64,000 nucleotides of DNA from Leucobacter sp. Psy1. Lineage in GTDB: Bacteria > Actinomycetota > Actinomycetes > Actinomycetales > Microbacteriaceae. The position numbers and the translations under genes are program-made. Of this stretch, positions 14,448-16,916 are shown piece by piece; within the stretch, counting starts at the first letter, position 1, and every line of letters starts with the position of its first letter. The stretch lies in contig NZ_CP083692.1 of assembly GCF_020096995.1 (NCBI RefSeq), forward strand, positions 1,612,001-1,676,000, given 5' to 3'. The notes beneath the pieces were generated by a model. That model had not been told where the DNA came from, ran no database searches, and saw nothing but the letters and a program-made list of their open reading frames with translations.

Positions 14448-15254
14448 TCAGGCGGTCGCGATGGCGAACAACGGGTCGGTCGTGGGGGCGCCCGTTGGAG
14501 AGCCGCCCGCGGGCTCGACGGTGACCGCGATGAGATCGCCCGCTGACATACTCCCGTCGAGCACTGCAACCGCCTGATCATCGTCGGGCGTGAAGGTGCC
14601 GGCGGACACGGGAGTCTCACCGCGCACGTACCAGAGCTCGTAGGTCTCCGCCTCTGAGAGTTCCGGCAGCCCGGTGACCTCGAGAACGGCACTGCCGAGC
14701 TCGGCCGACCAGTGAGCTGTCGCCGTTCCGCCACCGGTGAGCTCGGCGGACGCGGACTCGGCGTCCGAAGCGCCTTCGACCCGCTCGAGTGCCTGCTGCT
14801 CGGCTGAGGGAGGCGAAATCGTGTCCGCGATCCACGGTCCGACGCCGATGCCGACGATGACGAGCAGCGACGCCGCCAGCGCGAACGCTCCTGCACGACG
14901 GCGACGGGTGGAGGGGCGTTCGTCGGACTCCGCCTCCTCATCTTCGTCACCGTCGGATTCTTCGGCGTGCTGGTCGGGTGCCTGATCGGCGCCCTGCGTC
15001 GTCGACGGATGACCGGCCGACTGAGTACCGGTCGGCGCACTGATCGCCTCGAACAGCGCCTGCTTCACGTACTGCGGCGGGGTGACCGGAGCGACGGACT
15101 CGGCAAGCTCTGCTGCCGTCCGCCGATCCTCATCGACGGCCCACCGCCACTCGGGGTGCGCCGCGAGGGCTTCGACGAACCGCAGCTCATCATCGGTCTC
15201 GAGCGCGTCGATGGCGTACGCCGCCGAGAGCTCCCTGAACTCCTGCTGATTCAT
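14448..15254 (-). CDS. Anti-sigma factor, RskA family (membrane-bound)
   Basis: 268 residues. A cytoplasmic N-terminal domain (about 1-75; MNQQEFRELSAAYAIDALE is typical of RskA zinc-less anti-sigma domains), a very acidic linker (about 85-115), one membrane helix (about 121-143, ALAASLLVIVGIGVGPWI) and an extracytoplasmic RskA domain (about 150-268) with YELWYVRGETPVSAGTFTP. Its ATG overlaps the sigma gene stop by ATGA, so translation is coupled. In mycobacteria RskA holds SigK until it is cut by intramembrane proteolysis. Confidence 0.88.
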   Translation of the reverse strand: MNQQEFRELSAAYAIDALETDDELRFVEALAAHPEWRWAVDEDRRTAAELAESVAPVTPPQYVKQALFEAISAPTGTQSAGHPSTTQGADQAPDQHAEESDGDEDEEAESDERPSTRRRRAGAFALAASLLVIVGIGVGPWIADTISPPSAEQQALERVEGASDAESASAELTGGGTATAHWSAELGSAVLEVTGLPELSEAETYELWYVRGETPVSAGTFTPDDDQAVAVLDGSMSAGDLIAVTVEPAGGSPTGAPTTDPLFAIATA

Positions 15255-15850
15255 CGTTCCACCTCCATCACTCGTCGCAGTTTCGTTAACCCATCTCGCA
15301 TGCGAGTCTTCACCGTGCCGAGCGGGGCATCGACCAGTACCGCGATTTCGCGCTGACTATATCCTCCGAAATAGGCGAGGATGAGTGGTTCGCGCTGGGC
15401 TTCGGGCAGTTCCGAAAGAGCCCGCGTCGCGCGCCCACCGTCGATCCGGATCTGAGCGAGCTCGTCGACCGAGTCCGGCTGGCTGTGTGCGTCACGTACA
15501 CCGATCCGCTCGTCGCGGCCGGTACTTGCTTGCGCCGATCGCACCCGATCGACCGCGCGACGATGCGCCATAGTCATCACCCACGTCCGCGCACCGCCAC
15601 GGTCCGCGTTGAACGTGCCCGAGGTCTGCCAGATCTCGAAGAAGACCTCCTGCAGCACCTCCTCGCTCTGCGACCGGTCAACGAGCACGCGAAGGATGAG
15701 ACCGAAGACCCGAGGCGCCAGCAAATCGTAGAACTCCGCGAACGCGCGCTGGTCGCCGCGAGCGGACTCGAGCAGCAGGAGCGTCAGCGGGTCGTACCCG
15801 TCCCCGTCTTCGGGGACCTCGACGCCATCAATCACCATATGTACTAGCAT
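15251..15850 (-). CDS. ECF sigma factor, SigK-like
   Basis: 199 residues. Region 2 (about 30-100) contains AFAEFYDLLAPRVFGLILRVL and TMAHRRAVDRVR; region 4 (about 140-195) contains AYFGGYSQREIAVLV followed by GTVKTRMRDGL. Both segments closely resemble mycobacterial SigK. GAGGAGGTGA precedes the ATG at 15850. Partner anti-sigma gene overlaps its stop. Upstream, and apparently in the same transcript, is a 54-codon DipZ-like remnant. Two promoters in the divergent region (16093-16184) share a CGAATG -10, implying that this sigma factor transcribes both its own operon and the fasciclin gene. Confidence 0.9.
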   Translation of the reverse strand: MLVHMVIDGVEVPEDGDGYDPLTLLLLESARGDQRAFAEFYDLLAPRVFGLILRVLVDRSQSEEVLQEVFFEIWQTSGTFNADRGGARTWVMTMAHRRAVDRVRSAQASTGRDERIGVRDAHSQPDSVDELAQIRIDGGRATRALSELPEAQREPLILAYFGGYSQREIAVLVDAPLGTVKTRMRDGLTKLRRVMEVER

Positions 15851-15903
15851 GCCCTATCACCTCCTCGATTGTTCTCTGCGAAACACCGTTCCCTGACGTG
15901 TCG

Positions 15904-16068
15904 TTACCCGAAGGTGAACGAGTACGCCTCGACACCCTTAGGCAGAAGGACTCCCAACGCCCCCGATCCGGCGCCCGCCGGCAAGAGGATCACGCGGAGC
16001 ACAGCAAGAATGCACGGTACGAAGCCAGTGACGAGACCGCCGAGCAGCCCGATCAAGACGATGTCCAT
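15904..16068 (-). pseudogene. 54-codon remnant resembling DipZ/CcdA, first ORF of the sigma operon
   Basis: ATG at 16068 with AGGGAGA upstream, TAA at 15904-15906. The first 30 residues, beginning MDIVLIGLLGGLVTG, form one membrane helix with a cysteine (FVPCILAVL). This resembles helix 1 of CcdA/DipZ proteins, which read G-x-x-TG-x-SPC-x-LP; here VPC and LAVLR replace the usual SPC and LPVLP. The last residues are GVEAYSFTFG, which I recall as similar to the tail of DipZ (CcdA-thioredoxin fusion) proteins. If so, this is an internally deleted dipZ. It could also be a functional micropeptide, since start, RBS and promoter are intact. It lies 53 bases before the sigma gene. Confidence 0.6.
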
Positions 16069-16092
16069 AGTGTTCTCCCTCTGTCACCCGGT

Positions 16093-16120
16093 CATTCGGA
16101 GAGCGGGAGGTAACGGATTG
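16093..16120 (-). promoter_or_regulatory. Probable SigK-type promoter of the remnant-sigma-antisigma operon
   Basis: On the minus strand CAATCC (16120-16115) is followed after 16 bases by CGAATG (16098-16093). The same elements and spacing occur in the fasciclin promoter facing the other way. Transcription would start about 15-20 bases before the ATG at 16068. Confidence 0.65.
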
Positions 16121-16156
16121 GTCACCGAAGCCACGAAAAAAACTTTGAGAAAGTTC

Positions 16157-16184
16157 CCATCCGATTCGCGCCCCCCTCCGAATG
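16157..16184 (+). promoter_or_regulatory. Probable SigK-type promoter of the fasciclin gene
   Basis: CCATCC (16157-16162), 16 bases, CGAATG (16179-16184). This agrees with my recollection of the mycobacterial SigK promoter (CCATCC ... CGAAT). The predicted transcript start (about 16191) falls at the first base of a tandem repeat. Confidence 0.7.
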
Positions 16185-16191
16185 ACCCAGC

Positions 16192-16241
16192 AGACCACCG
16201 ACCAGCGTGGTTCCAAAAGACCACCGATCAGAGTGGTTCCA
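16192..16241 (+). repeat. Tandem 24-nt repeat in the fasciclin mRNA leader
   Basis: Two copies at 16192-16215 and 16218-16241 (period 26) match at 22 of 24 positions. Each copy contains CCAC ... GTGG, so each could fold into a small hairpin in the 5' untranslated region, ending 18 bases before the start codon. Confidence 0.75.
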
Positions 16242-16259
16242 GATGGCAAGGAGGACATC

Positions 16260-16916
16260 ATGTTCGCACAGAAGAAGAAGCTCGGTGCCGCATTCGCAGT
16301 GACCTTCGCGGGGGCCCTCGTCCTCGCCGGCTGCTCGACCGGGAGCGATTCCGCGTCCGATGACAGCATGTCGGAAGACACCGCGCCCCAGGAGACGCAG
16401 ACGGAGGAGATGGATCCGGCGGCGAACCTCGTGGGCCCCGGTTGCGAGATGTACGCGGAGCAGGTTCCGGACGGCGACGGCTCGATCCAGGGCATGGCGC
16501 AGGATCCGGTTGCGGTCGCCGCATCGAACAACCCGATGCTCACCACGCTCGTATCCGCCGTCAGCGGTGAGCTGAACCCCGACGTGAACCTCGTCGACAC
16601 CCTCAACGGTGACGAGTTCACGGTCTTCGCGCCGGTCGACGACGCGTTCGCGAAGATCGACGAAGGCACGATCGACACCCTGAAGACCGACAGCGACCTG
16701 CTGACGAAGATCCTCACGTACCACGTGGTGCCCGGGCAGATCGCGCCGGCCGACATCGCCGGTGAGCACGAGACCGTCGAGGGTCAGATGGTCGAGGTTA
16801 CCGGTGAGGGCGACGAGCTCATGGTGAACGACGCCAACGTGGTCTGCGGTGGCGTGCAGACGGCGAACGCGACCGTCTACCTGGTCGACAGCGTCCTGAT
16901 GCCGCCGGAGGAGTAA
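16260..16916 (+). CDS. Fasciclin (FAS1)-domain lipoprotein, MPT83/MPT70-like
   Basis: 218 residues. A lipoprotein signal peptide ends in LVLAGC (lipid on Cys25), followed by an acidic Ser/Thr/Glu-rich spacer. A single FAS1 domain (about 75-216) shows TVFAPVDDAFAKI and ILTYHVVPGQI. In Mycobacterium the SigK regulon includes the fasciclin lipoproteins MPT83 and MPT70, so the arrangement here is the same partnership. AAGGAGGACATC precedes the ATG; a longer reading from 16182 would run through the leader repeats and lose the signal peptide position. Role likely cell-surface adhesion; exact ligand unknown. Confidence 0.92.
   Translation: MFAQKKKLGAAFAVTFAGALVLAGCSTGSDSASDDSMSEDTAPQETQTEEMDPAANLVGPGCEMYAEQVPDGDGSIQGMAQDPVAVAASNNPMLTTLVSAVSGELNPDVNLVDTLNGDEFTVFAPVDDAFAKIDEGTIDTLKTDSDLLTKILTYHVVPGQIAPADIAGEHETVEGQMVEVTGEGDELMVNDANVVCGGVQTANATVYLVDSVLMPPEE

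Follow-up and report, generated by a model that had tools for sequence, protein, structure and literature searches.

The locus described here lies in a 64,000-nucleotide stretch of Leucobacter sp. Psy1 DNA (hereafter the window), in which the genes of an extracytoplasmic function (ECF) sigma factor (sigK) and its anti-sigma factor (rskA) diverge from the gene of a fasciclin lipoprotein (fas1). In all probability, judging from sequence comparison, the sigma factor of this SigK-RskA pair would drive the divergent fas1 and, via a promoter that likely once served another gene, dipZ, its own operon, most of dipZ having likely been deleted in this lineage. The locus is likely a known regulon in a derived form that lacks dipZ, and the "minimal ancestral form" suggested by a first-pass annotation is not supported. 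In Leucobacter, dipZ as a rule separates the promoter from sigK, and both of its ends are left here as a scar, so that the compact layout appears to be derived.

The divergent arrangement proposed earlier is confirmed, with a correction: two outward motifs flanked by three genes are present, but a 54-codon open reading frame (ORF), missed at that time, separates the minus-strand promoter from sigK. This ORF consists of about 33 N-terminal DipZ codons (16068-15970) fused in frame to approximately the last 20 codons and the stop (about 15966-15904). Its N-terminal 33-48 residues are about 60-79% identical to DipZ and, in tblastn, the closing end (...SFTFG) also matches; this end falls on positions 120-142 of the 142-position Pfam Thioredoxin_10 profile with an E-value of 0.019, below the cut-off. 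Only these two ends remain, and the CcdA-type membrane domain and the CXXC thioredoxin domain of DipZ are absent. Furthermore, the scar differs at 7 of the 28 N-terminal columns that are invariant in 24 intact DipZ proteins, which indicates that the DipZ-type constraint has been relaxed.

A survey of 54 Leucobacter genomes shows what the undisrupted locus looks like. SigK is found in 28 of them and FAS1 in 27, the two sets differing only by G019, which has a partial SigK match at 50%; the module thus seems to be inherited as a unit. Among the 27 loci with both SigK and FAS1, 24 carry an intact dipZ before sigK, that of G012 is frameshifted, and the window and Leucobacter tardus K 70/01 (locus L102, genome G048), the nearest named relative found, have none. 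The intact DipZ proteins of the 24 loci, 571-576 residues long, combine a CcdA-type N-terminus with a thioredoxin motif WAYSCINCQRS, and that of L049 matches the M. tuberculosis DipZ structures 2hyx/5cyy with an E-value of about 1e-110. The fas1 gene lies on the far side of dipZ, except in G024, with fas1 at a distance of about 6 kb. Full-length DipZ was found in no SigK-less genome among the 54 searched, nor in G048 or the window genome (3.25 Mb, single contig), the latter yielding nothing for DipZ at an E-value of 1e-10. In L. tardus, about the 3 first and 38 last dipZ codons persist, out of frame and without a stop, and no mini-ORF is formed. Since L. tardus keeps C-terminal codons absent from the window and lacks N-terminal codons kept there, neither of the two deletions can have given rise to the other, and the simplest reading of the two sequences is that dipZ was likely lost twice in this pair.

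Both members of the matched, divergent motif pair of the first-pass annotation were recovered as exact matches, pointing outward, at the positions that it had given (Table 1), and the window contains no match beyond these two sites when one mismatch is allowed. Their conservation in relatives, set beforehand as one of the tests that could overturn the proposal, was assessed by counting ATCC-N14-18-CGAA within 200 bp upstream of a gene, in comparison with shuffles. All 26 of 26 Leucobacter loci have the motif before fas1 (shuffle mean 1.6, maximum 6), as do 64 of the 65 loci outside the genus (shuffle mean 3.8, maximum 8), and it precedes dipZ in 24/24 Leucobacter and 15/15 other loci (shuffle means 1.4 and 0.7). 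Its distance to the dipZ start is 23-27 bases in 20 of the 24 intact Leucobacter loci, and in the window the CCGAA of the minus-strand motif ends 26 bases ahead of the ATG of the scar, the old dipZ start codon. The distance to the fas1 start is 76-77 bases in the window and L. tardus; the remaining 24 Leucobacter loci have 47-52. In the dipZ-bearing loci, no motif was found in the 200 bases preceding sigK (0/24 Leucobacter, 0/15 others, one of the latter having dipZ behind rskA). In these relatives, the sole SigK-type site found before sigK is thus the one preceding dipZ, so that sigK would be reached mainly through dipZ. At the level of sequence comparison, this conservation settles that the two motifs are real, and the minus-strand promoter is likely the former dipZ promoter, now placed before scar-sigK-rskA. 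Both the window and L. tardus retained it upon dipZ loss. Runs of A and T, similar in L. tardus and L049, are observed at 16121-16156, between the two -35 boxes, which could possibly constitute a shared upstream element.

To place these events in a wider frame, the best 80 loci of one genome scan were compared, 6 of which duplicate genus loci; the remaining 74 (mostly Microbacterium) comprise 15 with a full dipZ, 2 whose dipZ is broken or truncated by a contig end, and 57 that lack the gene, and fas1 faces sigK in most of these 57. A dipZ remnant was recognised by pattern in 3 of 58 dipZ-less named loci (a set excluding the dipZ carriers L151 and L170), namely L102 of L. tardus, L110 of M. aurantiacum and L174 of M. 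flavum; L173 shows a degraded remnant by eye, and the other dipZ-less named loci show none. In Microbacterium oryzae ZSM5 (L170), dipZ is found behind rskA on the opposite strand, at +1494 to +3262 relative to sigK, and is accompanied by a SigK-type motif of its own. In four other loci (L120, L126, L128 and L152), fas1 stands ahead of sigK on the same strand and a back-to-back motif pair sits roughly 900 bases before sigK. A quick tree of 91 loci (39 with dipZ and 52 without, 50 of these non-Leucobacter) requires at least 12 changes of the dipZ state, 7 of them forced by well-supported branches. The tree by itself cannot separate gain from loss, and it is the remnants that show losses in the lineages carrying them.

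Beyond the named loci, DipZ occurs in 25 of 149 genomes of the order and in 21 of 296 genomes of the class. In 27 of the 28 DipZ loci of the order, SigK, FAS1 or both lie no more than 1.5 kb from dipZ; 3 of these loci, all from the family of the window, have both, and only L194 has neither. Of 17 newly fetched class loci (L216-L232), six (L216-L220 and L229) carry FAS1 or SigK beside dipZ, both being present in L216 and L217, again from this family; in the other 11, some of which end short, neither was seen. In L218, which has the order fas1-dipZ-fas1, a similar motif precedes each of the three genes. Collectively, these gene neighbourhoods show dipZ widely paired with FAS1 or SigK, and the full order fas1-dipZ-sigK-rskA in this family only.

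Most dipZ-less loci outside Leucobacter have no SigK-type site in front of sigK: the upstream motif is present in 7 of 57 loci without a full dipZ (shuffle mean 1.6, maximum 5), a set that here includes L167, whose dipZ is fragmented, and L176, whose dipZ runs off the contig. A related motif, [CA]ATCC-N15-CCGAA, is located within sigK codons 75-83, pointing at rskA, in 61 of the 74 non-Leucobacter loci (55/63 Microbacterium loci by record title) and in none of the 27 Leucobacter loci, window included. For instance, L103 carries CAATCC-N15-CCGAA at sigK nucleotides 224-250, and L105, L108 and L110-L114 are further examples. The codons used at these positions are strongly biased: Gln75 is encoded by CAA in 62 of 71 sigK genes, versus 84 of 588 for other Gln codons, and Ser76 by TCC in 64 of 65. 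When 194 columns are ranked by codon bias, three motif columns come 1st, 2nd and 5th, and two columns outside the motif come 3rd and 4th; kinship of the loci makes simple p-values for this bias too strong. The intragenic motif changes at fewest 6 times on the tree. Since it is found both with dipZ (13/15 loci) and without (47/57), it is not simply a substitute for a lost upstream site.

Several readings compete with the one favoured here, in which SigK would drive fas1 and, through the old dipZ promoter, its own operon. That the two motifs are a chance resemblance, sigK and fas1 using other promoters, is highly improbable. Shuffles of the window gave a mean of 0.55 matches at one mismatch and 14 of 100 reached two, so that the window by itself is suggestive only, but the presence of the motif before every fas1 and dipZ counted in the genus and its fixed spacing (to fas1 in 24 of 26 loci, to dipZ in 20 of 24) speak against chance. 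It is also very improbable that the compact fas1-sigK-rskA order is ancestral, with dipZ inserted later in other lineages. The many dipZ-less loci on the tree, the blindness of parsimony to gain versus loss and the lack of remnants in most dipZ-less named loci would fit such a history; on the other hand, dipZ C-terminal remnants next to sigK in the window, L. tardus, L110, L174 and, by eye, L173 mark losses, the adjacency of fas1 and dipZ or of dipZ and sigK recurs in other families of the order, and for the window lineage the scar itself contradicts this order of events. Finally, dipZ loss could have been tied to the loss of the SigK redox cysteines, in a switch that stopped sensing redox. 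The window lacks both: its SigK has no cysteine, and A144 and V194 are the equivalents of M. tuberculosis C133 and C183, as read by hand from the 4nqw alignment. However, none of the 28 genus SigK proteins has both cysteines, those of all intact-dipZ loci included (2/28 keep one, equivalent to C133). This count refutes the joint loss within the genus and indicates that the cysteine loss came first, so this explanation can hardly be upheld.

The nature of the 54-codon ORF deserves a separate discussion. It seems rather unlikely that it is more than a scar, that is, a kept small membrane protein produced by an in-frame dipZ deletion or a translated leader coupled to sigK. Its DipZ-like start and end are retained, and a search of 5.8 billion proteins returned five further proteins (P0001-P0005, five of six candidates), all of 54 residues, 81-96% identical and with the same junction, so that the frame is open in all six known variants. 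On the other hand, such a search returns open ORFs of similar length, which makes the constant length weak evidence, and there is no such ORF in L. tardus. Across the six variants, 16 of 54 positions vary, Cys19 is lost in 4/6, and radical changes such as G7R and Y49D/N occur; the RNA fold of the scar leader is not unusual (z +1.4). Overall, a scar or a translated leader would come first and a kept peptide second.

Some observations weigh against the favoured reading, a dipZ-less locus autoregulated from the old dipZ promoter, or restrict its reach. The mini-ORF stays open, with its length unchanged, in five other sequences, a regularity that is not required of a decaying scar. The best listed family of SigK, NF007228, scores 223.6 bits, 2.4 under its curated cut-off of 226. 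The two mature cysteines of the fas1 product are kept in 52/52 loci without intact dipZ and in 35/35 with it (proteins with a recognised lipobox; four without this pattern have 2 or 3 cysteines), and such an identical pair does not favour DipZ as an indispensable partner. Recognisable remnants are few, so that loss is shown for few lineages, and outside this family no locus seen in the order and class surveys has FAS1 and SigK both beside dipZ. Moreover, CMATCC-N15-17-CGAAT occurs at four further sites of the window genome, none clearly before a gene by eye, and no genome-wide SigK regulon is established from such motif sites.

The identities first assigned to the products, a SigK-like sigma factor, a coupled RskA and a fasciclin lipoprotein, together with their kinship to mycobacterial SigK, RskA and MPT70/MPT83, are borne out by Pfam, NCBIfam and PDB comparisons (Table 1).

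Table 1. Coordinates of the features of the locus in the window.
Feature	Position	Strand	Basis
rskA, anti-sigma factor, 268 aa	14448..15254	-	PF10099, NF052375
sigK, ECF sigma factor (SigK-like), 199 aa	15251..15850	-	NF007228, PF04542/PF08281, PDB 4nqw
54-codon ORF, dipZ scar	15904..16068	-	tblastn to intact DipZ of relatives, both ends
SigK-type promoter motif CAATCC-N16-CGAATG, likely former dipZ promoter	16093..16120	-	exact match and comparison
SigK-type promoter motif CCATCC-N16-CGAATG for fas1	16157..16184	+	exact match and comparison
Imperfect 26-base tandem repeat, fas1 leader	16193..16244	+	sequence
fas1, MPT70/MPT83-like fasciclin lipoprotein, 218 aa	16260..16916	+	PF02469, PDB 1nyo

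RskA lies above both family cut-offs (PF10099, 82.2 bits versus 29.4, E 5.4e-23; NF052375, 147.6 bits versus 100), with one membrane segment at approximately residues 122-142, assigned by eye, and an RskA_C domain at 125-260; it has no meaningful match among solved structures. The start of rskA and the stop of sigK overlap by 4 bases, and, apart from a few exceptions, sigK is followed by an rskA relative both in the genus and in the named loci. The sigK product is filed as SigK-like from its best listed family, below the cut-off, and its nearest PDB chain, SigK 4nqw (E 9.9e-41). The FAS1 domain is recognised by PF02469 (E 1.3e-28) and matches MPT70 (1nyo, E 1.3e-64); with a lipobox LVLAGC and two further cysteines, the product has the features of the MPT70/MPT83 family, and its lipidation is predicted. 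The fas1 start is most likely the ATG at 16260, with AAGGAGG ahead and the lipobox after it; the start at 16182, which would give a 244-residue ORF, sits within the -10 box. Among 26 Leucobacter loci, a long fas1 leader is found in the window and L. tardus only. These two are 72% identical in RskA, 93% in SigK and 98% in FAS1, the RskA changes being mainly in the cytoplasmic linker. Unusual divergence of RskA was considered and discarded: other pairs with SigK at about 93% show 72-86% for RskA, and 72% is at the low end, within this range. A peroxiredoxin gene (AhpC/TSA, 13201-13662) and a TetR-type regulator gene (13795-14406) adjoin rskA.

The literature search returned no published account of this locus and nothing on Leucobacter fasciclin or on ECF19 with fasciclin; the papers joining dipZ and fasciclin are all mycobacterial by title. 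A 2008 paper by Veyrier is said to be the key work on the evolution of the SigK regulon. The window shares with the mycobacterial regulon an ECF sigma gene with an adjacent RskA gene and a FAS1 lipoprotein target, and its Leucobacter relatives share DipZ as a third partner (sigK-rskA; mpt83-dipZ-mpt70). The published comparisons below draw on excerpts of the cited papers. The mycobacterial order fas1-dipZ-fas1 (PMC9861118) is that of L218, which has the same bipartite promoter; mpt83, mpt70 and dipZ each have their own SigK-dependent promoter, and DipZ, a membrane thiol-disulfide protein, is proposed to help fasciclin disulfides (PMC9861118). The mycobacterial system spans two loci (PMC10540498), whereas the window has one, with dipZ cut to a 54-codon scar and a SigK without C133/C183. 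In the cskE-sigK-dipZ island of Corynebacterium pseudotuberculosis (PMC3078919), sigK, the anti-sigma gene and dipZ are listed next to one another, which is also their arrangement in intact Leucobacter loci; its excerpted text names no fasciclin gene and lists dipZ as a gene, not a remnant. SigK proteins missing both cysteines, as in the window, are described in PMC7509140, with abnormal RskA in 23% of such cases versus 2% of those with cysteines; by contrast, the RskA of the window is full length. Conservation of SigK sites across Actinobacteria has been published, as has the release of the anti-sigma factor by proteolysis in the mycobacterial system (both PMC7509140). An RskA-type anti-sigma K of the related actinobacterium Leifsonia xyli, Lxx18460, has been compared with a Microbacterium protein (PMC6323826), the passages of this source mentioning no fasciclin or upstream gene.

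How the switch could operate may be outlined by analogy. RskA would hold SigK at the membrane until an outside signal leads to RskA cleavage, for which the one M50 site-2 protease gene found in the genome encodes a candidate. Freed SigK would then transcribe fas1 one way and scar-sigK-rskA the other, amplifying SigK and resupplying RskA. The mycobacterial C133-C183 disulfide gate cannot operate here, as this SigK lacks the cysteine pair. Because the deletion kept the promoter, the autoregulatory loop could have survived while DipZ was dropped. The work of DipZ may be covered by a CcdA-TlpA pair elsewhere: ccdA adjoins resB and a tlpA-like gene (resB-ccdA-tlpA-like cluster, L213:2407-5473). PF02683 (Pfam DsbD_TM) searches had suggested that the genome has no CcdA protein, which is wrong; since this search missed ccdA, it yields false negatives, and CcdA counts in the genus are lower bounds.

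According to the literature found, SigK regulons have been studied mainly in tubercle bacilli, and the same kind of switch is seen here in Leucobacter and Microbacterium. Since dipZ is naturally present in some relatives and absent from others, the role of DipZ with respect to the fasciclin and to the signal becomes open to study in non-pathogens. We tentatively propose, as a reading that has somewhat less than even chances, that one family rewires its sigma loop by moving promoters. In intact loci, the dipZ promoter would feed sigK; in the window, dipZ was cut and its promoter kept with an open 54-codon mini-DipZ, leaving a bare autoregulated sigma/anti-sigma/adhesin switch; in Microbacterium, where the upstream site is usually missing when dipZ is missing, a promoter within the sigK codons would fire at the anti-sigma gene. 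If true, this predicted intragenic promoter would represent an uncommon route to negative feedback.

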